This document shows, piece by piece, positions 1,167-63,803 of a stretch of 64,000 bases of DNA. The stretch lies in contig NC_086351.1 of NCBI RefSeq assembly GCF_036324505.1, positions 998,501 to 1,062,500 on the forward strand, given 5' to 3'. Origin of the DNA: Eleginops maclovinus. Taxonomy: Eukaryota > Chordata > Actinopteri > Perciformes > Eleginopidae. The notes under the pieces are model-generated. The model ran no database searches, was not told the origin of the DNA, and saw nothing but the letters and a program-made list of their open reading frames with translations. The position numbers and the translations under genes were made by a program. The stretch's first letter is position 1. Each line of letters opens with the position of its first letter.

Positions 1167-16501
<15,335 letters not shown>

Positions 16502-22849: not shown

Positions 22850-23021
22850 AGCCCAGCAGATGAAAGGATATGATGTTAAAGGATACTGCAGGTAATCAGG
22901 CAACAGAACTTTCTAGGGCCCAGCTCGTCTCTAATACTCACCCCTGTCACTGCAGACAGAACACACAATACACTGATTACACACACTTCATTGCTATGTG
23001 AGTTTCCATCTGACTGGAGCC

Positions 23022-28261: not shown

Positions 28262-28758
28262 ATGGCCTTTCCAGGATACGGTGCAGCCCCCGGTGGAGCC
28301 GCGGTAAGAGAGCCTTAAAGTGTGATGTTTTATCGGGATTAAAGCAGAACATGTAAACCCTGTCCCGGGACAGTCCGGAAGTGGGGACGAGTTGACTGAA
28401 AATACGCGTTTTATTTCACGAAAAGCTGCGGATGTTTCACCTGCTTAAATACCTGGCATCAGTTAACGCTGGGAGGAATATGTGTGTATACATATAAATG
28501 ATAGAGAATGAGCTGTTTGTTAAACATTAGTACAAGTGGTTGTTTAATTGCTTCCACATTTGAGCAGTGGTGGGAGAAGTATTTAACAAAGGTAACAATT
28601 ACAGAGTAGGAATACCACCAAAAGTATTATTATTGTTATTATTATTATTACTATTATTATTGTTATTATTATTGTTATTATTATTATTGTTGTTACTATT
28701 ATTATTGTTGTTATTATTATTATTGTTGTTATTATTATTATTGTTGTTATTATTATTA

Positions 28759-28816
<58 letters not shown>

Positions 28817-41700: not shown

Positions 41701-44700
41701 AGCCAATTCTGACCGCTGGGAGGAGAATGTTTTCTGGGTGTGGGGGTAGGGTGGGATAGGGATCGGCGGGCGTTGTCGTGTCGTGCAAGACTCTGAGCGA
41801 CACTGAAGGAGTGCTCAGCAGCCTCTACGTAAGTCTTGTTGACCTCGCTTGTTTTTTTTGTTGTTTTAGGAAAGTTGTTGACTAGCTAATGTTAGTTTTT
41901 GATCACAGTTCAAGTTATCCTAACACATGCATGTGCACAGCTGTCCATATTAAGGAAGCTGTGTATACATGAATTGCAAACAGAAGTGACACAAAAACTG
42001 CAAAATTAAAGATCACTGGCCCATATCATGTTGATTTAGGTGTAAGCTATTTTTAGAATATTTACAGCTTTGCATTGCTGTCTGATGAACCTTTCAGTTG
42101 GGGAACTGAACTGAAGCGGCTATCCCCAGACTCCTTTGACAAAAACAGTAATTTGCCTTGCATAACACGGAGGGAGCTGGTCTACCCATGCCTTGATTGG
42201 TTTAGATGGTTTGTGTGAATGTTTGATTATATTTTATTGCAGCTTCTTGAGGAGACCATGTTTGCCTATCTGAAGAACGAGCTTAAGACGTTCTGTAAGG
42301 TTCTGAGTACTAATAACCTAGAATGCTTTGAGAGCCAAGGTAAGTATGAAGAAGTGGTTGATGGGGAAGAAGAAGAGCAGAGAAGGAGCAGAAGAGAGGC
42401 AATTATGAAGCTCACACTGGACTTCCTGAGAGGAATGAAGCAGGAGGAACTGGCAGACTCACTGAGAAACAGTAAGAAACTTAAAATAGATGCTCATATC
42501 ATAGATTCACACATCTACAGTTTACTGTCAATATGCTGTGCAACACCTGCATAAGATCTATACAGTATACTGACTTTACACATCAGCTGAAGCTCTTTGT
42601 CTAGCATATAGTACCTACTGTTGTGTCTGCTCTGGGTGTGTGTGGGTATGTGCATGACAGTGGAAATTACTCATGTTCAGGTCACATTTTATTAGTGGTT
42701 CTTTATAAAATGAATGAAGGCGAAACTCTGGATAGATCTTAAAGTCTTTGTATTGTCACTAAAAGAAACAATGTCTGCATATTTGCTGCATGCTAATGTT
42801 TAAGGAACTGAAGGTATCTCTCGGCTGTGATTGGATGTTCCTCTTCACATTACAAGTGGTGCAAAATGCTGCTTTTGAAAAGTGTCACTTCACCTCTGGG
42901 CTCTCTCGTTTCCAGCCGGGTCTTCGTTGAAAACAATGGAAATGTGCGTGCCTAAACACGGCCAGTGTCCAGCACCTAATAATCATTTGTTATTTTTCTT
43001 GTAGAATCTCTTGCTGCAGTGGGCCAACATAAACTCAAATCTAATCTGAAGAAGAAGTCTGAATATGTGTTTGAGGGGATTGCTAAAGCAGGAAATCCAT
43101 CCGTTCTGAATAAGATCTACACAGAGCTGTACATCACAGAGGGAGGGACTGCAGAGGTCAATCTTGACCATGAGGTCATACAGAATGAGAAAGCATCCTG
43201 GAAACCAGACACACCAGAAAGAACAATCGGATGTATAGACATCTTTAAGGCCTCACCTGGAAGAGATAAACCAATCAGAACAGCGATAACAAAGGGAATG
43301 GCTGGCATTGGGAAAACAGTCTTAACACAGAAGTTCACTCTGGACTGGGCTGAAGGCAAAGCCAACCAGGACATCCAGTTCATATTTACTTTCTCTTTCA
43401 GAGAGCTGAATGTGCTGAAAGAAAGAAAGTACAGTTTGGTGGGACTTATTCATTGGTTCTTTCCTGAATTGGAAAAAGCAGGAGTCCAGTGGTTTGAAGA
43501 GTCCCAAGTCCTGCTCATCTTTGACGGTCTGGATGAGTGTCGACTCCCTCTGGACTTCCACAACACTGAGGTCCTGACTGATGTCACAGAGTCCACCTCA
43601 GTGGATGTGCTGCTGACAAACATAATCAGGGGGAAGCTGCTTCCCTCTGCTCGCCTCTGGATAACCACACGACCTGCAGCGGTCAATCAGATCCCTCCTG
43701 AGTGTGTGGACATGGTGACAGAGGTCCGAGGGTTCACTGACCCCCAGAAGGAGGAGTACTTCAGGAAGAGGTTCAGAGATGAGAAGCAGGCCAGCACCAT
43801 CATCTCCCACATCAAGACCTCACGAAGCCTCCACATCATGTGCCACATCCCAGTCTTCTGCTGGATCTCTGCTACAGTTCTGGAGGAAATGCTGAAGACC
43901 AGAGAGGGAGGAGAGCTACCCAAGAGCATGACTGAGCTGTACATCCACTTCCTGGTGGTTCAGTCCAAAGTGAAGAACGTGAAGTATGATGGAGGAGCTG
44001 GGACAGATCCACACTGGAGTCCAGAGAGCAGGGAGATGATGGAGTCTCTGGGGAAACTGGCTTTTCAGGAATTGAAGAAGGGCAACATCATCTTCTATGA
44101 GTCTGACTTGACAGAGTGTGGCATCGATATCAGAGCAGCCTCAGTGTATTCAGGAGTGTTCACACAGGTCTTTAGAGAGGAGAGAGGACTGTACCAGGAC
44201 CAGGTGTTCAGCTTCGTCCATCTGAGCGTTCAGGAGTTCCTGGCTGCTCTTTATGTCCATCTGATCTTCTTCAACTCTGGAGTCAACCTGCTGTCAGAAG
44301 AACCAACATCCTCACTGTGGTCTAAATGGATCGGAGTCACACCTGGAAACCTCTATGAGACTGCTGTGGACAAGGCCTTACAGAGTCCAAACGGACACCT
44401 GGACTTGTTCCTCCGCTTCCTCCTGGGTCTCTCAGTACCAACCAATCAAATGCTCCTACACGGCCTGGTGACACAGACAGGAAGCAGCCCGCTGACCAAT
44501 CAGGAAACAGTCAAATACATCAAGAAGAAGATTGAAGATAATCTCTCTGCAGAGAGAAGCATCAATCTCTTCCACTGTCTGAATGAGCTGAACGACAGTT
44601 CGCTAATTCAGGAGATCCAGAAATGCCTGAATTCAAATTGCCTGTCCACTGATAAGTGGTCTCCTGCTCAGTGGTCAGCTTTGGTCTACATCTTACTGTC

Positions 44701-47700
44701 TTCAAAAGATATCCTGGAGGTGTTTGACCTGAAGAAATACTCAGATTCAGAGGAGGATCTTCTGAGGCTGATGCCAGTAGTGAAAGCCTCCACCAAAGCT
44801 CTGTAGGTTGAAAATGAGGGGGCTCCAAGGGTGATTTTATGGGATGTGTCACTGATTGCTGGAACACTATTTTAAGTTTTCTAATTATTGTGAAAAAAAT
44901 TTTTTTCTAAACAATGAGTAATAAATATTGAAGAAACATGTTACTTTACGTGTTTGTTGCCAATCCTTCTTCAGGCTGAGTTGCTGCAATCTGTCAGAGA
45001 AAAGCTGCAAAGCTCTGTCTTCAGTGCTGAGCTCTGGGTCCTCCAGTCTGAGAGAGCTGGACCTGAGCAACAACAACTTGCAGGATTCAGGAGTGGAGCT
45101 GCTCTGTGAAGGACTGAAGGAACCACGTTGTAAACTGGAAACTCTCAGGTCAGGATTCATCAATTTGTTTAACAGATATTGTACAACAACATACGGTGGA
45201 AATATTTCTCACGTATATCCAGAGGATGACTTATTATTCCAGTTCTTTGGAACTCTCTGGACTTTGATATTCAATTATTCAACCTTACCAAAGTGTCCAG
45301 TCTCCTACAAGTAGCGTTGGAGGTATTGGGGGGAACAGGGAGAAGCAGGCCATATGCACCAGTGTTGTAGTCAAGTCACCAAGTCTGATTCAATGAGTTC
45401 CCACTCTTCGAGTCCGAGTCCAAGTCCGAGTCATCATGTAGTAATCTGAGGAGATATATTTGAATTAAATTTAGCTGTTGGTTTGTGTGGTTCTCCACTT
45501 CTACTTAACTGCTGTTAAGCATTTTGTCTGCAATTTTTGTATGAAAGGTACTATAAAAATCTAAGGATTATTGTCATTATTATAATTATTGACATTGCGT
45601 CAAGTTCCAAGACAGCCTTCCAAGAGCAGCTTCACAAATAAAAAGGATCTACATTAAACAAAATGACCCACTGTCAGCATTTCCGGTTTACTTGTAAGAG
45701 AAGAGAGACAAAGGGGAGAGACAAAGTTGTTAGAAAGAGAAGTGTCCAGTTTAGTTTGATGTATTACAGTGTCTGTTTATTGTTAGAACCAGCAATAAAC
45801 GGATGTTTCAAATTCATCTTTTCTCCGTGATAAATAATAGCCCAGACAGTTGGTTACCGGCTGACAACGAGCCACGTCAGGACTTGCCGCCGAGCATCCA
45901 AACTACGGTTTAGGATACCGATAGTAAAGAATGTAACAGAACTTTAGCTCATGATATTTGACGTGGTCCAAGTCTTTTCCTCAATCGTCCTTTCACAGAA
46001 AGAGCTTTGACTGAGCTCTCTCAGTCAAAGCATGGACTGAGAATAGTGGGGGCGCGCGGTACGAGTACTCGCCTCGCAGCTGCACACGCCTGGGGCTGTG
46101 TACATCCGGACTTAAGACAAAACTAGTTTGAGTCCAAGTCCGATCGTCATTGCGCGTCCAGGACTGGAGTACTCCAATTCTGAATTATGCACAACAATAT
46201 CAAATCTGTGTAAAATAATGCACCACAGTTAGTTGGAAAGCGGTCATTGGCATGGCCTTGAACCTATGGCCTTGTTTTCCCTAAATCTCCTGTTTACAAA
46301 AGGTATTTCCAAAAACAGCAACAAGTTATATATTATTGTAATAAAACCCTTAATTGTATCTGCAGGGTATCAGGATGTCTGATCACAAAGAAAGGCTGTT
46401 CTTCTCTGGCCTCCGCTCTGAGATCCAACTCCGTCCTGAGAGTGCTGGACGTCAGCTACAATAATCCAGGAGACAGAGCAGTGGCTCGCCTTTCTGCTGT
46501 AAGACTTCGATCCCTCAGGTATGAACAGGATGAGTTTGTTTTATTCAGTAGGTCGACATAAGTGGTTTTTAGTCATTAAGTGTTGATCTGACTTTGTTTT
46601 CACTCCAGGGTGGACCATGGTGGACAGCAGTTAATGACACCGGGTCTAAGGAAATGTAAGTGTGTTTTTATTGAATAAAGAGAACAGGTTGAAGATGACA
46701 AACTTAGAAAACGTTGTTGTAAATGTACAACACCATGGGGATGCATCCCTTTCTAAATAAGGATCTAGCCCAAATGCTTAAAGATGCAAATGTCCTGTCT
46801 TACCTGGACTGCTGCAACCCCCATGTATTCTTGACATTATTGAAAATCTTCGATGGCCCCCAGAGCCTACCGTTCACTACTGACATATTCCTTAGAGCAG
46901 GGGTCTTCAACGTTTTTCAGGCCAGGGACCCCCAAACTGATGGAGAGTTGGAGCAGGGACCCCCTACTATTAATATGGCATACAATTGTGTTTTATATTA
47001 AACGGGGCCTAGTGCAGTGTGTAAACATAGATACTGTTATTGTACATTCAATACTAAGCTATTCAAATAATACACAGGTTAATATATTCATGTTTTTATT
47101 TTAAACAAGTGCAAGGTACAGTGTGGCCGTACCACTGCCATTTATGAACATATATCTTGCACACAACACAGGGCTATTAAAATAAATCACAATAAAAGTT
47201 TGAACTTTAAACAAGTGCAAGGTGCAGAGTGGCTGTGCCACTGTCATTTATAAACAAACACTGAGCTATGAGATTTTAACACTAAACATGCATGTAGATG
47301 GGACAATGAATCCTCAAACCATCTGTGGATGGCACACGTACTCTCACATCAGTGAGATGTCTGACCCTGATGAGCAGCACACAGCTGATCCAGCCTTGGA
47401 CGGATGGAGGTTGTCAGGCAGAGGGTCATATCAGCCTCAGGCTGCAGCCTTGACCTGTATTTGTTTTTCAAGTAAGTCAGTGAGGAAAATCCACTTTCGC
47501 AAAGATAGGTTGTGGCAAAGGGCAAAAGGCTCATCATGGCTTTTCCTGCCAATTGCGGAAAGTCTTTCAGGCAAGAGATCCAGAACTGGGTGAGTGGTTT
47601 TGTGTCATATATGTGTCTGAACGTACTGTCAGTGGATAGTTCGATTAGCTGATCCTCCTCCGTCACTGTCAGGTGTGTGCCGTCTGCTGCGTTGTCTGTG

Positions 47701-50700
47701 AATGGAAACAGTATCCATGTCTTGTCCCTGCGCCAGGAGTCAGCCTCAGAAAAGTAGTGCCCAAATTGTCCCTCGAGCGCCTCCAAATGCGCAAGAATTG
47801 CGCGTGTAATGGGGGGCGAGAGCACAGCAGAATCTCCCAGCTCATCCACTGATGGAAACATGGAAAATATTTCCTCCCCGATGCGCTCCCTCCACCTTTT
47901 GATTTTTTTTAGAAAGCCTTCCATTTTGTCATACAGTTGAATGGCATGGGTATTGCGGCCTTGCATTGAACTGTTCAGTTTGTTCAGCTCAGCGAAAACA
48001 TCAGCAAGATAGGCAAGTTTGGTGACCCAAACATTGTCACTGAAAAGTGCAGCCAGCTCTGTGCGCTTTTGGAGAAGTAAAAACTCCCGAATAGACTTGC
48101 GCAATTCCAGCACACGTGACAACACTGTTCCACGTGAAAGCCACCGAACCTCGGAATGGTAGAGTAGCGCAGTGTGTTCTTCTCCCTCAGCAGCACAGAG
48201 ATTCGAGAAGAGACGTGTTTGCAATGCGCTCTTCTTGACTAGGTTGACTACTTTCACTACCGAGTCCATGACATCTGCCAATTCAGCGCTCATATCTTTG
48301 GCAACAAGTGACTCCCTGTGTAGCATGCAGTGCGTCCAAATCACTTGCGGAGACACATCCCTTACAAGCGCGATTAGTCCACTTTTTAAACCAGCCATGG
48401 CTCTTGCACCGTCAGTGCACAGCGCAATATTTTGTCCACGGAATGTCATTCTCTCTGAAAAAAACATCGATCACTTTGAAGATTTCAGAACTAGTTGTGC
48501 GTTGAGGGAGGCACTTACAAAACAAAAATTCCTCCTGCATTTCCTTATCATCGACAAAGCGCACAAACGCCAGAAGCTGGGCGTCCTTCGACACATCTGT
48601 TGACTCGTCTAATTGTAACGCAAATGCATCTGCCAACCTCAGCTTCTCTATCAGTTGCATCCTCACATCAGATGCCATCTCGTCTATACGGCGAGCTATG
48701 GTTGTGTCCGACACTGGAATGGTTTTCAGTTTATTAATGTCAATATCATTTCCATACATGGTTTTACACATATCGGTTGCTGAAGGCAATATTAAATCCT
48801 CTGCAAGTGTGTATGGCTGTTTCTTCTGGGCAATCCGAAGAGCAATTTGATAAGAGCATTTCAAAGCTAGCTCCCCAACTTTGGCTGATTTTCTGATCAA
48901 TGTCTGTTGACCTTGGAGGGATTTGAGGCTAGCTTGGAAGTATTCAACAGGTTTGTCTTTTAAGTGGCTGTGTGCTGTCTCCAAGTGACGCTGCAGCTTT
49001 GATGGCTTCATAGATTCATTTGAAAGAACAGTAGAGCAAATGACACACATTGGAAACTCAATGCCATCTGTCTCCTTAAAGGTAAACCCGAACTTCAGAT
49101 AATGATCTGAATATTTTCGTGTCTTCTCCCTTTTGCGCTTACCCTTATTAGCTGCAACATCTGCAGGCGCAGCAGGTTCTGCCTCGTCACTTGCATGTTC
49201 ACTGGTGGATGGTATCTCGCTTGTGCTTGTTGATTTTTCCGCTCGAGTTACAAAACGATCCATTTTATATGTATGGTCTTCTCAATAATGTCGCTGCGTG
49301 CATCCCTGTGTCTGGGTCTTCAGTAAACTGGGGCCTGAATAGGCTCTCGTCCAATGACGGGGAACCTGACAGAGCCAGCGCATAGACATAATATTATGTC
49401 TATGAGCCAGCGTGTGTCACACGGCCTCGTGATTGGCACATCTGCCTCCATTTTTCCGTTCGCTATAATATTTTGGATTTGTGTTGTGCATTTAAAGACA
49501 TTGCAATTTGTGGGAAAAAACGGTTTGTAAAAAAAAAATATATATATAAAAAATTGTCTAATCAACCAAAGATTTCGCGACCCCCCTGCAGTACCTCCGC
49601 GGACCCCCTGGGGGTCGCGACCCCCCTGTTGAAGACCTCTGCCTTAGAGTGTGACCACAACCAATAACCAATCACTGAAGTCATTTATATTTGGGTTCCT
49701 GGATCTATTTCAGCCTCTCCTCTCTCCCCCCTCTCCCCCCCCCCTGTGAAGCAGCAGTAAATACTTATAACGCGTTTCTTATCTTAAATGACCTAGTTAG
49801 CATTTTTAAATAGTATTTACCTTTCTAATCACTCCCCTTTCAGACTGTACTTTAGTTTTACTGTCCCATACTTTGGAATGATTTCATAACTGCTTTTATT
49901 TATTCTGATCTTTTTCTAAACTATAATAATATTATAAAGGTGTGCCTTGGGAATATTGTTGACATAAATGAGGACCAAACTGTTTGAGAGCCCCTAAGAA
50001 AACTGAGAGTAACAGTAACTATCCAAAGTTTAGAACTAGAGTTTCTGAACCCTCAGAGTCCTTCACCTCACTGAGCTCCAGTTATCTGAGGCAGAGCTTC
50101 AGGAGAGGACTCTGCCTCCACCTGTTCTAGAAACAGCGTCCAATCCCTGATAGCAAAGCTAGCTAACAGGATGCTAACAACAACAGTCCTCCTCTCTCTC
50201 CCTCGCTCGCTTGCACAAAATGCGCTTGTGTCAAAGCACAGAGCCGACCTGAATGACAGACAGAGGACCCCAAAGTACTTGTACTACTGTATGGTATTAC
50301 TTTGGATGGCATGATTGTATGATCAGTATGACAGATTAAAAGATCCTGATTTTTCTTTGTTATATTCTTCATGTTGTGAGAAATGTTTGTCCTGAAATCC
50401 GGGGCTATTTCTAAAACCAGGGCAGACGACAGCACTGGTGCTGCCCATCTAGGCTGAAGTGCTCCTATTGGTCACCGCCGCTCCAAACTGTCCCGGAACG
50501 CTGCGCTCAAAGTTCCTATTATTTCCACTTGGACTAAAAGTCTTATCCTTCCCCAAAATACATTTCGTGCCTAGCTGTGATCCAAGCTAGATGTTAACAT
50601 TAAGATGCTGACATCACATTAACAATGCTTATATTCTCTCCACCAGACGCCCGTGAACTCACACTGGACCCAAACACAGCGAACAAAAAGCTCATTCTGT

Positions 50701-51176
50701 CCGACAACAACAGGAAGTTGACAGCGAGCAAAGAGACGCAGCCATATCCTGATGATCCAGAGAGATTTGACTACTGGAAGCAGGTGCTGTGTACAGATGG
50801 TCTGGACGGTCGCAGTTACTTCGAGGTGGATTGGGCAGGACATGTTTATATAGCAGTGACTTACAGAGGAATCAAAAGGAGAGGAGAAAGTGAAGACAGC
50901 TGCCTTGGAAGGAATGATCATTCCTGGAGTCTGAGCTGCTCTGAAAATGAGGGTTACTCTATCCTTCACCGTAACAAAAGAGAAAAGATCCCTATCCCCA
51001 CCTCGAATAAATTGGGGGTGTATCTTGACTTGCCTGCCGGCACTCTGTGCTTCTTCAAGATCTCTGCAAACAAAGTCACCCACATCCACACCTTCCACAC
51101 CACATTCACAGAGCCGCTCTTCCCTGCCTTCAGGGTAAGGATGGACCTGCAGAACTCGTCTGTGTCTTTGTGTTAG
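38705..51176 (+). CDS. NLRC3-like NOD-like receptor (repeat exons, FISNA, NACHT, LRR, B30.2)
   Basis: Fifteen coding exons: 38705-38775, 39329-39436, 39644-39727, 39891-39974, 40138-40260, 40362-40469, 40677-40760, 40924-41046, 41190-41247, 42243-42471, 43005-44802, 44975-45148, 46366-46518, 46609-46655, 50647-51176. All phases agree, giving 1257 residues without a stop. The start [13 protein letters not shown] is typical of the fish-specific NLR-C expansion. Order: seven short repeat exons ([20 protein letters not shown] type), a linker exon with an acidic stretch, FISNA, NACHT, two LRR-type exons, and a PRY-SPRY domain. These are cytosolic innate-immune sensors with largely unknown ligands. 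No PYD or CARD is seen. The last intron carries an antisense hAT element. Confidence 0.92.
39329..41046 (+). repeat. tandemly duplicated N-terminal repeat exons of the NLR gene
   Basis: Exon starts 39329/40362, 39644/40677 and 39891/40924 are each 1033 bp apart, with near-identical introns. Inside the first copy, 39644, 39891 and 40138 are each 247 bp apart. All seven exons are multiples of 3 in phase 2, so copy number can change without breaking the frame. They encode the consensus [20 protein letters not shown]. Confidence 0.9.
43005..44802 (+). CDS. FISNA-NACHT exon of the NLR gene
   Basis: Single 1798-bp exon (phase 1 in, phase 2 out). FISNA occupies roughly the first 75 residues ([20 protein letters not shown], ending near VNLDHEVIQ). 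Walker A GMAGIGKT is at 43295-43318 (about residue 455 of the full protein). Walker [10 protein letters not shown] is at 43511-43537, followed by the sensor region [10 protein letters not shown] winged-helix/NAD2-like part ends with [14 protein letters not shown]. All ATP-binding motifs are intact. Confidence 0.95.
44975..46655 (+). CDS. LRR exons of the NLR gene
   Basis: The exon at 44975-45148 is 174 bp, the standard size for an NLR LRR exon, with [20 protein letters not shown]. The exon at 46366-46518 is 153 bp with [20 protein letters not shown], and a 47-bp linker exon at 46609-46655 leads to B30.2. Only about three LRRs are present, few for this family. Confidence 0.85.
45360..46182. 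mobile_element. probable hAT-like MITE
   Basis: The left end cagtgttgtagtcaagtcac and the inverted right end (cagaattggagtactccagt) share the CAG..TTG.AGT pattern. The interior is rich in 'gagtccgagtccaagtc'. 'tatgcac' occurs on both flanks. In NLR intron 12. Boundaries approximate. Confidence 0.45.
46898..49641 (-). mobile_element. full-length hAT transposon, ZBED-type, with 8-bp target duplication
   Basis: Terminal inverted repeats caggggtcttcaac and, at the other end, gttgaagacctctg (13 of 14 match), flanked by perfect CCTTAGAG duplications at 46890-46897 and 49642-49649. Length 2744 bp. It sits antisense in the last intron of the NLR gene, and the flanking exons still join in frame. The near-end sequence ('gggaccccc') is GC-rich and palindromic. 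Confidence 0.93.
47349..49263 (-). pseudogene. hAT transposase (BED zinc finger) broken by one frameshift
   Basis: Two overlapping reading frames, 49263-48412 (283 residues) and 48467-47349 (372 residues), read as one transposase interrupted near 48428-48440. The first part starts [11 protein letters not shown] and carries a BED finger (CVICSTVL, then HLETAHSH) and [11 protein letters not shown]. The second continues with [12 protein letters not shown] and [15 protein letters not shown] and ends in the hAT C-terminal dimerisation region ([20 protein letters not shown]). No other stop is seen, so the loss of function is recent. A sequencing error in the short A-run at the break cannot be excluded. 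Confidence 0.85.
50647..51176 (+). CDS. PRY-SPRY (B30.2) terminal exon of the NLR gene
   Basis: Encodes 176 codons including the stop. [23 protein letters not shown] and [53 protein letters not shown] and [10 protein letters not shown]. It is a ligand-recognition domain common in fish NLRs and TRIMs. Phase matches the exon at 46609-46655 across the transposon-bearing intron. Confidence 0.93.
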
Positions 51177-53568: not shown

Positions 53569-56500
53569 TCAGATTATGGCAGATTTCATGAACTGAAAGG
53601 AGAAAAGAACATTATGAATTAAAATAATAACCTTGTGTTTTCCACACCAGGTAAAGGCTATCGACAGAGAAGCAAAGTAAACAGAATGTCTGAGTAGTAA
53701 ATAAGGAAGTTGTGATGTACATTTGTGAATAAATGTAAAGCTGCAAAGATAAAAAGTGTTTGATCAAAAAACAGGGTGGCTCAGAGAGCAGCGATGTTCA
53801 GGGAGGGGGGGGGGGCTGTTATGTGTACAAAATAAACATAAATATAAAAGTGTTATGTGTTGAGTGTAGTTACGCAGAACAGGTGCAGGTGTTGCAGGTA
53901 GGTAGGTAGGTAGGAAGGTATTTAGGAAGGTAGGAAGGAAGGTATTTAGGAAGGTAGGTAGGTAGGTAGGTAGGTAGGTAGGTAGGAAGGTAGGTAGGTA
54001 GGTAGGTAGGTAGGAAGGTATTTAGGAAGGTAGGTAGGTAGGTAGGTAGGTAGGTAGGAAGGTATTTAGGAAGGTAGGTAGGTAGGTAGGTAGGTAGGTA
54101 GGTAGGTAGGTAGGTATTTAGGAAGGTAGGTAGGTAGGTAGGTAGGTAGGTAGGTAGGAAGGTAGGTAGGTAGGTAGGTAGGTAGGAAGGTATTTAGGAA
54201 GGTAGGTAGGTAGGTAGGTAGGTAGGTAGGAAGGTATTTAGGAAGGTAGGTAGGTAGGTAGGTAGGTAGGAAGGTATTTAGGAAGGTAGGTAGGTAGGTA
54301 GGTAGGTAGGTAGGTAGGAAGGTATTTAGGAAGGTAGGTAGGTAGGTAGGTAGGTAGGAAGGTATTTAGGAAGGTAGGAAGGAAGGTATTTAGGAAGGTA
54401 GGTAGGTAGGTAGGTAGGTAGGAAGGTATTTAGGAAGGTAGGAAGGAAGGTATTTAGGTAGGTAGGTAGGGAGGTAGGTATTTAGGAAGGTAGGTAGGGA
54501 GGTAAGTATTTAGGAAGGTAGGTAGGTAGGTAGGTAGGTAGGAAGGAAGGAAGGAAGGAAGGAAGGAAGGAAGGAAGGAAGGAAGGAAGGTAGGTAAGTA
54601 TTTAGGTAGGGAGGTAGGAAGGTAGTAGGTAGGTAGGTAGGAGGTAGGTAGGTAGGTAGGAAGGAAGGAAGGAAGGTATTTAGGAAGGTAGGTAGGAAGG
54701 TAGTAGGTAGGTAGGTAGGTAGGAAGGAAGGAAGGAAGGTATTTAGGAAGGTAGGTAGGTAGGAAGGTAGGAAGGTAGGTTGGAAGGTAGTAGGTAGGTA
54801 GGTAGGAAGGAAGGTAGTAGGTAGGTAGGAGGTAGGTAGGTAGGAAGGAAGGTATTTAGGAAGGTAGGTAGGTAGGTAAGTATTTAGGTAGGTAGGTAGG
54901 TAGGAAGGAAGGAAGGAAGGAAGGAAGGAAGGAAGGAAGGAAGGAAGGAAGGAAGGAAGGAAGGAAGGAAGGTAGGTAGGTAGGTAGGTAGGTAGGTAGG
55001 TAGGTAGGAAGGAAGGAAGGAAGGAAGGAAGGAAGGAAGGAAGGAAGGTAGGTAAGTATTTAGGTAGGGAGGTAGGAAGGTAGTAGGTAGGTAGGTAGGA
55101 GGTAGGTAGGTAGGTAGGAAGGAAGGAAGGAAGGTATTTAGGAAGGTAGGTAGGAAGGTAGTAGGTAGGTAGGTAGGTAGGAAGGAAGGAAGGAAGGTAT
55201 TTAGGAAGGTAGGTAGGTAGGAAGGTAGGAAGGTAGGTTGGAAGGTAGTAGGTAGGTAGGTAGGAAGGAAGGTAGTAGGTAGGTAGGAGGTAGGTAGGTA
55301 GGAAGGAAGGTATTTAGGAAGGTAGGTAGGTAGGTAAGTATTTAGGTAGGTAGGTAGGTAGGAAGGAAGGAAGGAAGGAAGGAAGGAAGGAAGGAAGGAA
55401 GGAAGGAAGGAAGGAAGGAAGGAAGGAAGGAAGGAAGGAAGGAAGGAAGGAAGGAAGGAAGGAAGGAAGGAAGGTAGGTAGGTAGGTAGGTAGGTAGGTA
55501 GGTAGGTAGGTAGGTAGGTAGGTAGGTAGGTAGGTATTTTGGAAGGTGGGAAGGTGGGCTGTGTTGTCCGAGTGAAACATATTTGGAACATACAAATATA
55601 AATGAGCATTAGCAGCAGGTTTGTACAGATATCTCACAGTATGGTATAGTATAGTAGTATCACAACATTCCTCTGTGCTTATTTGCTCACTCACCTGCTG
55701 GTATGAGAAGCTGGCCACCTGGCAGTCACACGGTAACCTCAGCAGGTGAGTATTGAACCGCTCTGAGAAGGGAAGACAATATTAGAATCGCTGTCGTCAC
55801 GTAAAGACCATGAAGCTTTAGAAGGGTGCACCTTGTTGCTCTCCACCTCTGATAGTGTGGCGCAGACTCATTAGGTTTCCATTACCTCTGAGGATCAGGA
55901 GTTTGGTAATGACGGCCACATACTCGTCGTAGTCGATCCCGTGTCTGGAGCGGATCCCGTTCCACAGAACTCCGAAGGTTTCATCGTCCAAGTCGAACTC
56001 TGCATAACGAAGGCAAAACCCAGATTAAAGGAAATGAAACCAGAGTGCTTCTGCTTCCTACATGTACTGCAACGAGACGACAGCGCACCAAAGAGAGCTG
56101 CAGGAAGGAGTCCTAAAACCCGGGAGTTATTTAGCACTAGCACTTCCTGTTCCCGTGTATCAGAGTTAGTGCTTTATGGCATCGCACATAATTAGAAAAC
56201 TGAAAATGGTAGAAAGTGCCAAACCTAAAGACGTTAGAATATACAATATAAAAAGAACAGTACCCCCCCACCCCCCCCCACCCCCCGGTTGATTAACACC
56301 AACACGCTGGAGAAAATGCTTCTCCAAAAGTAAAAGACTAATAAAAATGAGGTGTTTTCTCTGGGTATAAATTAAAAATCTGCCAAAAGAGCAAGTGAAC
56401 ATTTGCTTGGTAAGATGTCTTGAATCAAAACGGGATATTTAGATAATCAGATCTTGTAATTGTTAGGGAATATTTTAGTTTAACCTTTGACCTAGTTCAT

Positions 56501-59500
56501 CATGTTCTCCTTCCTCTGTCTGTATTGCCATGGCATAGATTTTCGGCCTTGCAGGTGCTGTTATATTCATTAAGGAGCGGCAGCTGGGCTACCTGAGCCT
56601 TGTGGTTCCCACAGTGGGTAAAAGCTCCTGCTTGACCAAAGATTGGCTTTATTGTTTAGGGACAGCTAGCTCCAGTTTATCTGGCCCCAGCTGCTCCGGT
56701 AAACACCTTATCTGTGACCGAGATGACAGTTTAAGTTAGTCTTGTTTAGTCTGGTGTTTGAAGAATGTTGATTACCCATTCAGAACTAGTTAAAACCTCT
56801 TCCTATTTTCGAGATCTTCAGAATTGGTTCGGCAACCGCTGTGGCAACTCGTGAAGGTAGGTAGGTGGGTGGGTAGGAAGGTAGGTAGGTAGGTAGGTCG
56901 TTAGGTCAGTAGGTGGGTAGGTGGGTAGTTGGGTAGGTGGGTAGGTGGGTGGGTAGGTAGGTAGGTAGGTGGGTGGGTAGGTAGGAAAGTGAAGACTGAA
57001 CATGTCACCATGGACGGACAAAGCCTTTTTCATTTGGGTTCGAGTGACGGAGGGCGGGTTCCTGCTCTCGCAGCTCTCCACATATTCCCGCCTGACAACA
57101 GCCACATAGTGCTCCATCTTGAAGACCTCCACCACGTCCAGGTCTCCACTCCGGTCTGCCTGGAAGCCCTTGGTTAAAGAACTTAAATGAAAAGTTGAAA
57201 GGCATGCACCTCGACACCTTATAGCATATATATTGATATACAGTGGGGCAAAAAAGTATTTAGTCAGCCACCAATTGTGCAAGTTCTCCCATTTAAAAAG
57301 ATGAGAGAGGCCTGTAATTTTTATCATAGGTATACCTCAACTATGAGAGACAGAATGAGAAAAAACAATCCAGGAAATCACATTGTAGGATTTTTAATGA
57401 ATTAATTGGTAATTCCTCGGTAAAATAAGTATTTGGTCACCTACAAACAAGCAAGAGTTCTGGCTCTCACAGACCTGTAACTTCTTCTTTAAGAGGCTCC
57501 TCTGTCCTCCACTCGTTACCTGTATTAATGGCACCTTTTTGAACTCGTTATCAGTATAAAAGACACCTGTCCACAACCTCAAACAGTCATACTCCAAACT
57601 CCACTATGGCCAAGACCAAAGAGCTGTCAAAGGAGACCAGAGACAAAATTGTAGACCTGCACCAGGCTGGGAAAACTGAATCTGCAATGGGTAAGCAGCT
57701 TGGTGTGAAGAAATCAACTGTGGGAGCAATTATTAGAAAATGGAAGACATACAAGACCACTGCTAATCTCCCTCGATCTGGGGCTCCACGCAAGATCTCA
57801 CCCTGTGGGGTCAAAATGATCACAAGAACGGTGAGCAAAATTCCCAGAACCACACGGGGGGACCTAGTGAATGACCTGCAGAGAGCTGGGACCAAAGTAA
57901 CAGAGGCTACCATCAGTAACACACTACGCCGCCAGGGACTTCAATCCTGCAGTTCCAGACGTGTCCCCCTGCTTAAGCCAGTACATGTCCAGGCCCGTCT
58001 GAAGTTTGCTAGAGGGCATTTGGATGATCCAGAAGAGGATTGGGAGAATGTCATATGGTCAGATGAAACCAAAATAGAACTTTTTGGTAAAAACTCAACT
58101 CGTCGTATTTGGAGGAGAAAGAATGCAGAGTTGCATCCAAAGAACACCATACCTACTGTGAAGCATGGGGGTGGAGACATCATGCTTTGGGGCTGTTTTT
58201 CTGCAAAGGGACCAGGACGACTGATCCGTGTAAAGGAAAGAATGAATGGGGCCATGTATCGTGAGATTTTGAGTGAAAACCTCCTTCCATCAGCAAGGGC
58301 ACTGAAGATGAAGCGTGGCTGGGTCTTTCAGCATGACAATGATCCCAAACACACCGCCAGGGCAACGAAGGAGTGGCTTCGTAAGAAGCATTTCAAGGTT
58401 CTGGAGTGGCCTAGCCAGTCTCCAGATCTCAACCCCATAGAAAATCTTTGGAGGGAGTTGAAAGTCTGTGTTGCCCAGCGACAGCCCCAAAACATCAGTG
58501 CTTTAGAGGAGATCTGCATGGAGGAATGGGCCAAAATACCAGCAACAGTGTGTGGAAACCTTGTGAAGACTTACAGAAAACGTTTGACCTCTGTCATTGC
58601 CAACAAAGGGTATATAACAAAGTATTGAGATGAACTTTTGTTATTGACCAAATACTTATTTTCCACAAGAATTTGAAATTAATTCTTTAAAAATCCTACA
58701 ATGTGATTTTCTGGATTTATTTTTCTCATTCTGTCTCTCATAGTTGAGGTATACCTATGATGAAAATGACAGGCCTCTCTCATCTTTTTAAATGGGAGAA
58801 CTTGCACAATTGGTGGCTGACTAAATACTTTTTTGCCCCACTGTATACACACATATATAGTGGGGAATCAACTTGAAGAGCATGAGGCGAGCCGGGACTG
58901 CTCTGATTCAACATTTACAGAGTTTCGTTAAATCGTGACAGTCTTATTGCCAGCTCATAGAGTTTGAACCGGGAAATGTTGTGAACCCCAAAGCTTTATG
59001 TTAGAAATGTCTAGTAGAAGTCCCCAGGAAGCTAACTTTGACAATTTCCGAGTGGTTTTGGGGGTTATTGGGGATGCTGGATGTGTTTCTGACATTTTCA
59101 GGATCAACAATGGCAGTCTTAACCAGAAAGTGGCCCTATTTGTTCTCCAGGTGGGCGGATTAGGGTGCATTTTTATTAGATTTTGAAGATTTCGGGGACT
59201 CATTTGGATTGGACAGAATGCTTATTTCTAAGAAAATTGTCCACAGTAGAGGCAATCACTTTCATTTTGTGCTCTCTTTATCCAATGGTCGAAACACTAA
59301 AACTGCCAATAACCCCCCCAAAAACTCAATTCTTGTACTATTGTCCAATTATTATAATGTAATTTAATGCAACTTGTGCTAACTGTGCAAACTGCCCTAC
59401 TATACATTTCTATCATAAAACTTTGTGTTACTCAACATTTCCGGGTTCACCGTGCTGGAAACTAGACTCTGGTCATAGTCGGGGGTAAACATTGCATCAG

Positions 59501-59734
59501 ACGGTGTTGGTCTGCAGCAGAAACGTTTTGCAAAGGATACGTCCATGAGCCTCAACAGCAGATGGGCTGTCTTGAGAGTCAGGGCTAAATAAGCGACAAT
59601 AAAGATGTGTAAACACGTTTCATTCAGATATTTAAATTGCATTGTTGAAATGAATGGAAAATAAACTGACTATTGCCATGAACGGTGTAGCCCCCGGCGT
59701 TCAGCTTAGCCAGAACTCCTTCAGCGCTCAGCGT
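53569..59734 (-). CDS. penta-EF-hand domain exons of the Frizzled-PEF gene
   Basis: Exons 59734-59671 (64 nt), 59584-59541 (44), 57159-57009 (151), 55999-55886 (114), 55762-55695 (68), 53592-53569 (24). The last five correspond to sorcin exons of 44, 148, 114, 59 and 27 nt with identical phases. Conserved text: [14 protein letters not shown] against [14 protein letters not shown] of sorcin, and [19 protein letters not shown] against the sorcin EF4 helix. EF1 and EF3 have lost their acidic ligands, and EF5 carries a CDC motif. The C-terminus is [11 protein letters not shown]. Confidence 0.88.
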
Positions 59735-62700
59735 CTGTCGGAAACAAGAGGGAATAAAGTTAGAGGAGACCTGAAAACACTACCTGTAATATATATACCA
59801 CAGTTAGTGCTGTCGTTTTGAGGACTTCTTACCCCCAAATAAATCCTCAGACTTTCCTCTGTTTTTTGATTCTCTTTTCACTGTGAAGCTTTTTTTAAGG
59901 TAACACAGGTGAGCGGCTGATTTCAATGCTATTGTTTTCCCTCCCATTTGGACTGGACACATGCTGGTCCTCTCAAATCAACACAGTGAGGTCACTGGTG
60001 CAGCAATGAGGACGGAATCCCCCAACATCTTCCCAACATGACCACCTTTAGCTTCCTGTAAACCCTTAAGTTAAGTCCTCTACTGTAAGGTAATATATAC
60101 TCACATCTGGCTTGCTCTCTTCCTGTGAAACAAGAGGAAAGGATGTCATGTAAAAACGGAACAGCAAAGGGAATCCAATGATTGGTCATTTCATCTGTCT
60201 CAATATTTCTTACCGACACACACATTTGCTCTGGGAAACGGCTGCACTGCAGATCATTTGGCCAGGAAACCCCGAAGCTGCTCATGGTCCCCTCGCAGCC
60301 CTGTTTGGCCCTCTCGCAGAAGGACCTGCAGGGCCGCTGCGCTTCCCCGGCCAAACACTTGGGGGCGTACACCATGCACACGAACAGGCGGAGGTCCACG
60401 GGGCACATGGTTTGCACCATGGCGTTGAAGAAGGACATCTTCGCCACCGCTTCTCTCTGACTGGTGTGTCCCAGCAGGTTGGGGCTGATGGTCTGGTTGT
60501 AGGAGAGGCCTTGGCACATGGGGATGGTGATCGCCTCACAGACCCCCCCGCTGCTGCCCACTCCGTACTGCAACAAGACGACAGGAATGAGTCCTAAAAC
60601 CCGGGAGTTATTTAGCCTTTTAGCACTTCCTGTTCCCTTGTATCAGAGTTAGTACTTTATTGATCCCAAACTGGTATTTCTTTTCGTCACAGCAGCATGT
60701 TCAAACAAGGCATTGCATAGAATTTAGAAGAGTAGAAAGGGACAAACCTAAAAAGAACAATATCACTCCTGCTGGTTGAATAACACCAACACGCTGGAGA
60801 AAAAGCTGCTCCAAAATCAAGTAAAGACTAATAAAAACAAGGTGTTTTCTCTCGCTATGAGTGAAACAATCTGCCAAAAGAACAAGGGAACATTTGCTTG
60901 GTAAGATTTCTTGAATTAAAATGGGATATTTAGATAATCAGATCTTGAAATTACCTTGGAAATCTTATTTTGAACTACCAGGATCAGGAAATGTGTTTCG
61001 AAATAAGCCAGAATTGCTGAAAAGTGTTCTGAGGTTCGTTGGTGATTTCCAATCAATATGTGTTTTATAAAATCAAGTTAGTTTTATTTCTGGAAAAAAG
61101 ATGAAATCCCTCTTTGACAAAAAGACCCCATATCTCACTGCATCGTTCCATCTTAAGTAATTAGCTAAAGACATATTCTTACTATAAATCAGACAAATAT
61201 ATTTTCAAGTGTTTCCTAAACATCTGTGCATCGATGCTAAGCAAAGAGCAGACTCACGTGTTCACAGGACTCCGTGGTAAAGGCATCACACCTGAGGAGT
61301 CGCGGCCACTGGAAGCCAAACCTCGTCATCAGTGTTTCGCAGCCGGAGCGTGCATGCTCGCACAGCGTCCTGCAGGGGGGCCGGGGCATTCCCGACACAC
61401 ACTCAGGGGTGTAGACGGAGCACAGGAAAGGCTGTAAATGAGGGGAGCAGTCCACTTTAAGCAGAGGAAGGAAGTTGTTCACTTCCAGGCCGACATCCTC
61501 CTGATTGGTGTGGCCCATCATGTTCGGCAGCACAGTCCGAGTGTAAGGCAGGTTTTTGCAGAAAGGGACGGTGATCTCCTGACAGGACGCAGGCGATGTT
61601 TGATCGAGGCCTAGAGTCTGAAAGAACAGAGACAGAAATCTGAACACCTGAACATCAGCAGGAGAGGACTCTTTAAAGTAGAGACTACATACTGATATAC
61701 ACCTGAACCTCAGCAGGAGAGGACTCTTTAAAGTAGAGACACTACATACTGATATACACCTGAACATCAGCAGGAGAGGACTCTTTAATGTAGAGACACT
61801 ACATACTGATATACACCTGAACATCAGCAGGAGAGGACTCTTTAAAGTAGAGACTACATACTGATATACACCTGAACATCAGCAGGAGAGGACTCTTTAA
61901 AGTAGAGACTACATACTGATATACACCTGAACATCAGCAGGAGAGGACTCTTTAAAGTAGAGACTCTACATACTGATATACACCTGAACATCAGCAGGAG
62001 AGGACTCTTTAAAGTAGAGACACTACATACTGATATACACCTGAACATCAGCAGGAGAGGACTCTTTAAAGTAGAGACGCTACATACTGATATACACCTG
62101 AACCTCAGCAGGAGAGGACTCTTTAAAGTAGAGACTCTACATACTGATATACACCTGAACATCAGCAGGAGAGGACTCTTTAAAGTAGAGACACTACATA
62201 CTGATATACACCTGAACATCAGCAGGGGAGGACTCTTTAAAGTAGAGACTCTACATACTGATATACACCTGAACATCAGCAGGAGAGGACTCTTTAAAGT
62301 AGAGACTCTACATACTGATATACACCTGAACATCAGCGGGAGAGGACTCTTTAAAGTAGAGACTCTACATACTGATATACACCTGAACATCAGCAGGAGA
62401 GGACTCTTTAAAGTAGAGACTCTACATACTGATATACACCTGAACATCAGCAGGAGAGGACTCTTTAAAGTAGAGACAGTACATACTGATATACACCTGA
62501 ACATCAGCAGGAGAGGACTCTTTAAAGTAGAGACTACATACTGATATACACCTGAACATCAGCTGGAGAGGACTCTTTAAAGTAGAGACTCTACATACTG
62601 ATATACACCTGAACATCAGCAGGAGAGGACTCTTTAAAGTAGAGACTACATACTGATATACACCTGAACATCAGCTGGAGAGGACTCTTTAAAGTAGAGA

Positions 62701-63803
62701 CTCTACATACTGATATACACCTGAACATCAGCAGGAGAGGACTCTTTAAAGTAGAGACTACATACTGATATACACCTGAACATCAGCAGGAGAGGACTCT
62801 TTAAAGTAGAGACTACATACTGATATACACCTGAACATCAGCTGGAGAGGACTCTTTAAAGTAGAGACTCTACATACTGATATACACCTGAACGTCAGCA
62901 GGAGAGGACTCTTTAAAGTAGAGACTACATACTGATATACACCTGAACATCAGCAGGAGAGGACTTTTTAAAGTAGAGACAGTACATACTGATATACACC
63001 TGAACATCAGCAGGAGAGGACTCTTTAAAGTAGAGACACTACATACTGATATACACCTGAACATCAGCAGGAGAGGACTCTTTAAAGTAGAGACACTACA
63101 GACTGATATACACCTGAACATCAGCAGGAGAGGACTCTTTAAAGTAGAGACACTACATACTGATATACACCTGAACATCAGCAGGAGAGGACTCTTTAAA
63201 GTAGAGACTCTACATACTGATATACACCTGAACATCAGCAGGAGAGAACTCTTTAAAGTAGAGACTCTACATACTGATATACACCTGAACATCAGCAGGA
63301 GAGGACTCTTTAAAGTAGAGACACTACAGACTGATATACACCTGAACATCAGCAGGAGAGGACTCTTTAAAGTAGAGACACTACATACTGATATACACCT
63401 GAAAGTAGAAGGGGGGGGGGGGACTTACGTTTTCACAGGTCTCGGTGGTAAAGGCTTCACACCGCAGGGCTTCTGGCCACAGGATGCCATACCTCTTCAT
63501 CAGAGATTCACAGCCCGTCCTCGCCTTCTCGCACAGCGTCCTGCAGGGTGGCTGACGTGTGCCGGACACACACTTCGGAGAGTAGACGGAGCACAGGAAC
63601 GGCTTCAGATGAGAGGAGCAGTCCACTTGGATGAAAGGGGAATACTTGGACATATCCAGGTCTGCTACCGCCTGAGATGTGTGGCCCAGGATGTTGGGCA
63701 TCACGGTCTCGGAGTACGTCTGGTCTAGGCACAGATGGACCCTAATCTCCTCACATGTACCAGACGATGTTTGAGTAGGGTTAGGGTGACTGAAGACCTG
63801 ACC
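53569..63803 (-). CDS. multi-Frizzled-domain / penta-EF-hand protein, 3' part (starts beyond right edge)
   Basis: Ten exons in transcript order: 63803-63429, 61617-61258, 60567-60214, 60122-60105, 59734-59671, 59584-59541, 57159-57009, 55999-55886, 55762-55695, 53592-53569. They join in frame to 523 residues plus stop. The first three are complete Frizzled CRDs with ten cysteines each. A 6-residue microexon (EESKPD) links to a PEF domain. Frizzled CRDs bind Wnt/lipid ligands outside cells; PEF domains sense Ca2+ and dimerise. I know of no described protein combining them. Only one EF-hand keeps a canonical loop ([12 protein letters not shown]). Signal peptide, further CRDs or membrane segments may lie upstream of the window. 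Large repeat arrays sit in its introns. Confidence 0.87.
53897..55536. repeat. (GGTA)n/(GGAA)n tetranucleotide array
   Basis: About 1.6 kb of ggta and ggaa with periodic 'gtatttaggaa' interruptions, in the last intron of the Frizzled-PEF gene. A segment near 54591 ('taggtaagtatttaggtagg' onward) is repeated 458 bp later near 55049. A smaller related tract is at 56857-56990. The Leu-Pro-Thr-Tyr-rich ORFs are by-products. Confidence 0.97.
56060..56460 (-). repeat. copy of the intron segment found at 60565-60960
   Basis: Shares 'tactgcaac.agacgacag', 'gagtcctaaaacccgggagt', 'taacaccaacacgctggaga', 'aacatttgcttggtaagat' and 'atttagataatcagatcttg' in the same order. Part of it (the 'ctggagaaaatgct' block) also occurs in sorcin intron 5 near 31820, so an interspersed repeat is included. 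Confidence 0.7.
57241..58844 (+). mobile_element. complete Tc1/mariner transposon with intact ends
   Basis: Flanked by TA dinucleotides (57239-57240, 58845-58846). Inverted repeats start cagtggggcaaaaaagtatt and stay nearly identical for roughly 170-180 bp on both sides, indicating a young insertion. It lies antisense inside the U12-type intron of the Frizzled-PEF gene. Confidence 0.95.
57606..58628 (+). CDS. Tc1-like transposase, apparently intact
   Basis: 340 residues, the usual Tc1 length, starting [20 protein letters not shown]. It has two helix-turn-helix modules in the first ~115 residues with a GRPR-like linker (SGAPRKIS), then a catalytic domain. DDE residues are visible: D in [14 protein letters not shown] in [11 protein letters not shown] and E in [11 protein letters not shown]. 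The glycine-rich box ([16 protein letters not shown]) is present. No stop or frameshift. Confidence 0.96.
58964..59450. mobile_element. MITE, second copy of the 13662-14380 family
   Basis: Left end 'tgaaccgggaaatgttgtga' with 'accccaaagctttatgttag'. The right end is its inverted complement ('cataaaactttgtgttactc', 'aacatttccgggttca'). Internal words shared with the first copy include 'attttgaagattt' and 'tgtccacagtag'. In the U12-type intron, next to the Tc1 element. Confidence 0.6.
60105..60122 (-). CDS. 18-nt microexon of the Frizzled-PEF gene
   Basis: Flanked by 'tgtttcacag' upstream and 'gtgagtatat' downstream on the minus strand. Encodes EESKPD, phase 0 on both sides, so it can be included or skipped without a frameshift. 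Sits at the junction of the Frizzled and PEF parts. Confidence 0.65.
60214..60567 (-). CDS. Frizzled CRD exon 3
   Basis: 118 codons, phase 0/0. Ten Cys ([45 protein letters not shown]). It is more diverged from the other two and closer to classical secreted CRDs in the [10 protein letters not shown] region. Its 5' intron edge recurs at about 56065 (see findings). Confidence 0.92.
61258..61617 (-). CDS. Frizzled CRD exon 2
   Basis: 120 codons, phase 0/0. Ten Cys ([46 protein letters not shown]). The Frizzled signature [13 protein letters not shown] is intact. Confidence 0.92.
61644..63404 (-). repeat. 57-bp minisatellite array 4 (about 31 units)
   Basis: Same unit and orientation as arrays 1 and 2, in the intron between the first two Frizzled exons seen. 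55-bp variants (gagactacat) are common here, and a G-run at 63411-63422 separates it from the exon at 63429. Confidence 0.97.
63429..63803 (-). CDS. Frizzled CRD exon 1 in window
   Basis: 125 codons, phase 0 on both sides; reads [20 protein letters not shown] at the start. Ten Cys in CRD order ([46 protein letters not shown]). Most similar to the next CRD, so the two are probably a recent tandem duplication. The acceptor could alternatively be 13 nt further into the exon (ttcag), but that would change the phase. Confidence 0.9.

Follow-up and report, generated by a model that had tools for sequence, protein, structure and literature searches.

A fish gene joining Frizzled-like CRDs to a sorcin-like penta-EF-hand domain encodes a predicted secreted protein and candidate Wnt trap

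We describe one intact fish gene that encodes a leader, Frizzled-1/2/7-like CRDs and a sorcin-like penta-EF-hand (PEF) domain, found in a 64,000-nucleotide stretch of DNA (the window) from Eleginops maclovinus, a notothenioid perciform. Its product is predicted to be secreted, and we give a probability of about one half to the reading that it works in soluble, paired form to trap acylated Wnts or lipids like them. This reading was proposed because the protein has the build of a secreted Frizzled-related protein (sFRP) with another second domain. The leader, called from hydropathy, would export the protein from the cell, and the middle CRD or CRDs, which carry a groove of the Frizzled-7 type, would bind either the acyl chain of a Wnt or an unsaturated fatty acid in free form. 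Sorcin dimerises via EF5, and the PEF part may pair two chains through its own EF5 region in a similar manner. Such pairing could be braced by one Ca2+ in the canonical loop, and perhaps also by the cysteines of a CxC pair. The outcome would be a bivalent sFRP-like binder in which a PEF tail replaces the netrin domain. We prefer this decoy reading as a plausible one.

The gene lies on the minus strand, where 10 exons between 63803 and 53569 are spliced into 1572 nt, which make 523 codons plus the stop. AG acceptors and GT donors were present throughout, the stop closes the final exon, and the alternative two frames of the joined exons are stop-rich. Each of the first three exons codes for a single Frizzled CRD and has phase 0 at both ends. 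They are CRD 2 of the full protein, the first in the window (63803-63429, middle class, groove YPFVLMYI, 4/8 as in Frizzled-7), CRD 3 (61617-61258, middle class, groove FPLVLMFF, 8/8 Frizzled-7 lipid-groove residues) and the PEF-proximal CRD 4 (60567-60214, groove 3/8, Frizzled NxT glycosylation site present). An 18-nt microexon at 60122-60105 encodes the linker EESKPD between the CRD and PEF parts. Six PEF exons follow: 64 nt (59734-59671, a remnant of the second half of EF1), 44 nt (59584-59541, the EF2 entering helix and the first residue of its Ca2+ loop), 151 nt (57159-57009, the remaining EF2 loop DADRSGDLDVVE and an EF3 without ligands), 114 nt (55999-55886, a degenerate EF4), 68 nt (55762-55695, the conserved CxC pair and the start of EF5) and 24 nt including the stop (53592-53569, the EF5 C-terminal helix FMKSAII).

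The initial annotation of this DNA had claimed a single 523-residue frame of CRD and PEF exons with three ten-cysteine Frizzled CRDs. Its coordinates 63803, 60567, 60214, 59734, 59671 and 53569 proved to be exact exon ends, the spliced frame is open to the stop with matching phases, and a Pfam scan of the 523-aa product found three Fz stretches (E 1.3e-88). Ten cysteines were present in all four CRDs of the Eleginops protein. The domain check it had suggested was borne out for Fz but not for the EF-hand family, of which the same scan placed none above the cut-off; the PEF part was recognised through sorcin matches and gene structure.

A database protein from Eleginops maclovinus, P0001 (650 aa, 'hypothetical protein PBY51_017146'), was 100% identical across the whole query, which corresponds to its residues 128-650, and it contains the microexon too. 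The CRD-PEF frame is therefore not a product of chance. Protein searches, from which the best 120 of 327 and the best 120 of 180 matches were taken, yielded 142 proteins, isoforms and partial models included. Among these matches listed, 120/142 proteins had CRD and PEF together by family-built profiles, the PEF profile being seeded from the CRD-PEF family itself, and the remaining 22 were CRD-only; the 120 include P0118, a sorcin read-through model. An ortholog search had been proposed, and these searches returned CRD-PEF proteins in many bony fish.

These homologues bear on whether a CRD gene and a neighbouring PEF gene were falsely merged, with one ending and the other starting between 60214 and 59734. 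A separate sorcin gene does share the window, and one char gene model (P0118) runs from sorcin into the CRD gene. Against this, the exon phases match, no stop interrupts the frame, and 120 of the 142 collected proteins among the matches listed hold both parts in a single protein, some of them on contigs too short to leave room for introns. A misjoin is thus extremely improbable, and phases, stop-free frame and shared homologue architecture led us to reject it in favour of one gene, as first annotated. The open frame and the conserved relatives rule out a pseudogene as well. Nine CRD-PEF proteins (P0009, P0047, P0058, P0082, P0088, P0095, P0098, P0101 and P0113) come from 'lgn' contigs, the longest of 1640-2754 bases. 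As the in-window exons alone span 10.2 kb, contigs of at most 2.8 kb are most simply spliced transcripts, which is what these nine suggest. Another 'lgn' entry, P0126, appears genomic.

CRD number varies widely across the family. The proteins of Synaphobranchus (eel) and Electrophorus (electric eel) have 307 aa and consist of a leader, one CRD and PEF; three CRDs (529-537 aa) were found in salmon, opah, Polymixia, Centroberyx and Myripristis; 71/120 CRD-PEF proteins among the matches listed have four CRD stretches; and killifish, e.g. Nothobranchius and Austrofundulus, have six. Because the CRD exons are phase 0-0, doubling keeps the frame, which fits growth in CRD number. Every CRD-PEF entry among the matches listed that names an organism names a fish, and many entries name none. 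One of them, P0078 (Oreochromis), is additionally filed under ferret in one source, which we took for contamination. Electrophorus was the only otophysan among the matches listed; zebrafish gave none, and loss of the gene there is possible. The salmon PEF region alone as query returned 4 proteins and added little on range. Tandem Frizzled CRDs in 3 to 7 stretches, with PEF absent, were also seen in the ENA contigs P0100, P0119 and P0123 and in P0127 (Penaeus indicus).

Residues 1-127 of P0001, encoded upstream of the window, comprise a hydrophobic leader, MEHLFLVFLGLLLVPQRAHG (predicted signal peptide), and an additional CRD, so that the full Eleginops protein reads as a leader, four CRDs and PEF. 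A signal peptide upstream of the window and a secreted or surface product had been anticipated. P0001 gives such a leader, and most homologues do likewise: among the matches listed, 103/115 Met-starting PEF-bearing proteins have a 12-mer with mean hydropathy of at least 2 near the start. The signal-peptide call uses hydropathy alone. In Kyte-Doolittle windows of 19 residues, the P0001 leader reached 1.08 versus 1.29 for the CRD cores, and no window exceeded 1.29. Past residue 50, at least eight homologues had windows at 1.64-1.76, the maximum of the set being 1.76. A membrane segment is unlikely judging from these values. Since the P0001 leader is not distinct from the CRD cores and homologue windows reach 1.64-1.76, anchor-free secretion is a prediction.

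An AlphaFold2 model of the Eleginops protein, for which 76 collected proteins were used, had a mean pLDDT of 88.6 and a pTM of 0.47, so the domains are sure but their mutual placement is unsure. The best 50 Foldseek matches of this model were all Frizzled-type CRDs, with none to the PEF part, and for this reason a second model was made from the Electrophorus homologue.

The fold search with the Eleginops model aligned 107 columns with Frizzled-7 at 57% identity and with Frizzled-2 at 55%. In sequence searches with two of its four CRDs, Frizzled-2, -7 and -1 came out on top (E 1e-35 to 3e-34). By sequence, the Eleginops CRDs are Frizzled-1/2/7-like. Eight residues partly form the acyl cavity of Frizzled-7, according to the review PMC6333880, and Eleginops CRDs 1-4 keep 0, 4, 8 and 3 of 8, respectively. 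Across PEF-bearing proteins among the matches listed (CRDs of at least 97 residues, P0118 excluded), with CRD classes set by order in the protein and therefore blurred by truncated proteins, N-terminal CRDs had 0/8 groove residues in 94/111 cases, middle CRDs a mean of 6.35/8 with a complete groove in 72/192, PEF-proximal CRDs a mean of 3.67/8 (n=111) and lone CRDs a mean of 5.0/8 (n=5). All ten cysteines were kept in 413/419 CRDs of this set, again among the matches listed. Middle CRDs with 7 or 8 groove residues occurred in salmon, polar cod, opah, Polymixia and percomorphs. That middle CRDs keep the groove suggests selection for binding lipids in the manner of Frizzled.

The Frizzled NxT glycosylation site is kept in PEF-proximal CRDs, N-terminal CRDs mostly have neither the groove nor this site, and the single eel CRD combines the full groove with the NxT site. 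Since groove and site are split across the CRD classes and occur together in the eel, the copies seem, as far as their residues tell, to have divided the features of one Frizzled-like CRD among them. A 30-row tree, built from 29 fish CRDs of 11/142 proteins together with human Frizzled-2, resolved three classes, with support of 100/100 for N-terminal, 97/97 for middle and 100/99 for PEF-proximal CRDs. Also grouped with the middle class were the additional Eleginops CRD and the lone CRDs found in Electrophorus and Engraulis. Polar cod departs from the simple pattern in that its last CRD fell in the middle class, and the eel CRD was placed next to human Frizzled-2 with its position unresolved.

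These groove counts also bear on how far the trap reading can be taken. In Eleginops, most groove residues are gone from two of the four CRDs (0 and 3 of 8 left), which counts against it. It is possible, if on the unlikely side, that the protein is secreted and oligomeric with no part in Wnt regulation, its CRDs carrying other lipids or building an extracellular layer such as mucus, egg coat or matrix. The empty grooves of N-terminal CRDs and the low mean of PEF-proximal CRDs given above, both among the matches listed, would fit this, as would a CRD number of one to six, which recalls structural or fast-evolving secreted proteins. The 7 or 8 groove residues held by middle CRDs from salmon to percomorphs speak against it. 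The protein could also be a positive Wnt factor that covers the acyl group, transports Wnt through tissue and hands it over with no trapping. We consider this doubtful. Its anatomy would be identical to that of a trap, and a secreted CRD-only Frizzled-4 variant is reported to act either way (PMC4669655), but the sequence has no feature that separates a carrier from a trap.

Against solved structures, the C-terminal part as a single sequence matched sorcin (E 3.8e-6). A profile of eight homologues matched a mu-like calpain chain (two matched stretches, 4e-26), sorcin (1.5e-25), the multi-EF-hand CFAP115 (6.4e-24), grancalcin (1.2e-21), calpain-3 (1.5e-15) and PDCD6 (5e-9), with sorcin the top score among single-PEF-domain chains. 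The model of the Electrophorus homologue matched the PEF fold, in which sorcin, grancalcin and calpain-3 were about tied. By sequence, gene structure and the homologue's model, the C-terminal part resembles a worn-down PEF domain of the sorcin type.

Its EF1 is halved, EF3 and EF4 have no ligands, and one canonical Ca2+ loop, that of EF2, is left. Several Ca2+-binding EF-hands were thus not found in the Eleginops PEF part, either by residues or at the Pfam cut-off. The EF2-like loop has ligand-type residues at positions 1, 3, 5 and 12 in 109/125 aligned PEF stretches, a set to which the genuine sorcin segment of P0118 also belongs. The 16 exceptions are the full-length eel and electric eel proteins and, for the others, largely broken or partial stretches. 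The CxC pair ahead of EF5 was found in 110/125 stretches and is absent in polar cod, the EF5 helix residues are conserved among the aligned stretches, and 14 diverse fish share invariant residues along the length of the PEF part. It is quite unlikely that the PEF tail is a worn-out passenger with no role, the CRDs alone being of consequence: ligands are missing in 4/5 EF-hands and the canonical EF2 loop is absent in eel and electric eel, but the retained EF2 ligands and CxC pair and the invariant residues argue against it.

As the full-length eel and electric eel proteins have no canonical EF2 loop, the ability to bind Ca2+ may have come later or be dispensable. Outside the cell, Ca2+ stays at a roughly constant millimolar level, so in this protein it would be structural rather than a signal. 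With one canonical loop left, the 'Ca2+-responsive' role of the initial annotation is unlikely as worded. Three points of that interpretation stand, namely one CRD-PEF gene, a product predicted to be secreted and no description found in the full-text literature searched; its Wnt-binding and dimeric roles are proposals.

In the same window there is a complete 8-exon sorcin gene (28262-34621, plus strand; sorcin E 2.9e-80 vs grancalcin 1.4e-69). From the third on, its exons have 70, 44, 148, 114, 59 and 27 nt with phases 0, 1, 0, 1, 1 and 0, and the PEF exons of the CRD-PEF gene, with 64, 44, 151, 114, 68 and 24 nt, have identical phases. All introns inside the PEF part (5/5) match those of sorcin in position on aligned residues and in phase. 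Introns were scored against a U12 consensus. The CRD-PEF intron at 57160-59540 (minus strand) is of U12 type, with a 5' site GTATCCTTT matching 9/9 and a branch-like site TTCTTTAAC matching 8/9, 13 nt from the 3' end. A U12-type intron of sorcin at 30740-31647 (plus strand) has a 5' site GTATCCTTC at 8/9 and a branch-like GTCCTTGAC at 8/9, 15 nt from the end. Both sit after the 44-nt exon, the matching position in the two genes, and the remaining 14/16 introns examined scored at most 5/9 at the 5' site. Sorcin intron 2 likewise has a branch-like site at 8/9, so the U12 argument rests on the 5' site. RTATCCTT occurs six times in the window against a chance mean of 4.9, no excess, and the weight therefore lies on the coincidence at the same exon border. 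Compared in sorcin and the CRD-PEF gene, the shared U12-type intron is better evidence for a PEF ancestry than for an origin from sorcin specifically.

The neighbouring sorcin is likely the relative that gave the PEF part. In Eleginops, the two genes are on opposite strands, facing each other 19 kb apart with NLR pieces between them. The model P0118 of Salvelinus namaycush, labelled 'sorcin isoform X2', runs from sorcin directly into the CRD-PEF leader, which would place sorcin directly upstream of the CRD-PEF gene on the same strand in that species. In human, Frizzled-1 is located close to sorcin. Given the opposite strands in Eleginops, an origin as a tandem copy needs a later rearrangement. 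A sorcin copy, probably local, may have acquired the CRD exons and leader before the split of eel and other teleosts; the phase-0 CRD exons would have multiplied later, from one to three and up to six.

Several other elements were recorded in the window. The pieces between sorcin and the CRD-PEF gene (42983-51173, plus strand) are of fish-type NLR and include FISNA, NACHT, NOD2-type winged helix, HD2, LRR and PRY-SPRY. Two overlapping transposase frames lie at 47352-49281 (minus strand), one with a weak DUF4371 match and the other with none, and are presumably of hAT type. A Tc1/Sleeping-Beauty-type transposase frame of 361 uninterrupted codons (57543-58625, plus strand) is located within the CRD-PEF U12-type intron. 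Short frames with collagen-like G-X-Y repeats at about 1400-12500 (minus strand) are probably exons of a collagen gene, and two RTATCCTT motifs 15 bases apart (22864-22886, minus strand) possibly mark another U12-type splice site, or chance. A 57-bp minisatellite occurs at four places (3108-4766, 9995-11646, 32536-33687 and 61644-63403) in 20-31 copies with 96-98% matches; the third is in the sixth intron of sorcin, and 31 copies lie between the first two in-window CRD exons. A tie to CRD doubling is only a thought, given the repeat's three other places.

Database entries of CRD-PEF proteins are labelled 'uncharacterized', 'atrial natriuretic peptide-converting enzyme-like', 'Frizzled-1', 'Frizzled-7', 'frizzled-like 1', 'secreted frizzled-related protein 2-like' or 'sorcin isoform X2'. 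The corin, Frizzled-1 and sFRP2 labels were ruled out by the absence of protease, 7TM and netrin parts. That no such family had been described agrees with a search of full-text literature, a scope outside which most subscription papers fall, where no published description of a Frizzled-PEF protein was found. PMC5484354, PMC8049264 and PMC13030388 are unrelated to this protein. An 'atrial natriuretic peptide-converting enzyme-like' gene is among the candidate genes of a midshipman neural transcriptome (PMC4446069), and may or may not be the CRD-PEF gene.

Corin, the atrial natriuretic peptide-converting enzyme, resembles the CRD-PEF protein in combining Frizzled CRDs in one chain. It has more than one such CRD together with serine protease, LDL-receptor and scavenger domains, and a Pfam scan of the window protein found no trypsin-like/serine protease, LDL-receptor or scavenger domain; the corin name looks like a mis-annotation. 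Frizzled-1/2/7 share with the new protein the CRD sequence and fold, the lipid groove of its middle CRDs and the NxT site of its last CRD. They differ in that the CRD-PEF protein has several CRDs and a PEF tail; Pfam found no 7TM family in the 523-aa product, and the 19-residue windows of P0001 stay at or below 1.29. Sorcin shares the PEF-type sequence, five intron places and phases, the U12-type intron and the neighbourhood, and its PEF fold is matched in the homologue's model. Unlike sorcin, the CRD-PEF protein lacks both the Gly/Pro-rich tail and the first half of EF1, keeps one canonical Ca2+ loop and has the CxC pair; sorcin is cytosolic, whereas the CRD-PEF protein is predicted to be extracellular, with a leader and CRDs ahead of PEF.

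The closest parallel is with sFRP1/2/5 and sFRP3/4, which likewise combine a leader, a ten-cysteine Frizzled-type CRD and a second C-terminal domain; secretion of the CRD-PEF protein is a prediction. An sFRP has one CRD and a netrin (NTR) domain, whereas the CRD-PEF protein has one to six CRDs and PEF: the Pfam scan of the 523-aa product found no netrin (NTR) domain, and the C-terminal part matches sorcin. The two Eleginops CRDs searched are also nearer to Frizzled-1/2/7 than to sFRP3 (1e-21, 4e-25) or sizzled (4e-17, 9e-21). The CRD-netrin fusion of sFRPs arose twice, according to PMC4669655. Where Wnt antagonists of the sFRP type join a CRD to netrin, the CRD-PEF gene seems to have recruited a domain akin to a cytosolic Ca2+ sensor and brought it to the extracellular space. 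The likely donor gene is still nearby, and the splice pattern documents this apparent recruitment. If Wnt is bound, many fish hold an undescribed Wnt regulator filed as 'corin-like', 'Frizzled-1' or 'sorcin isoform'. The family would offer a natural test of how duplicated CRDs share out their tasks, and of the part an EF-hand domain plays where Ca2+ is constantly millimolar.
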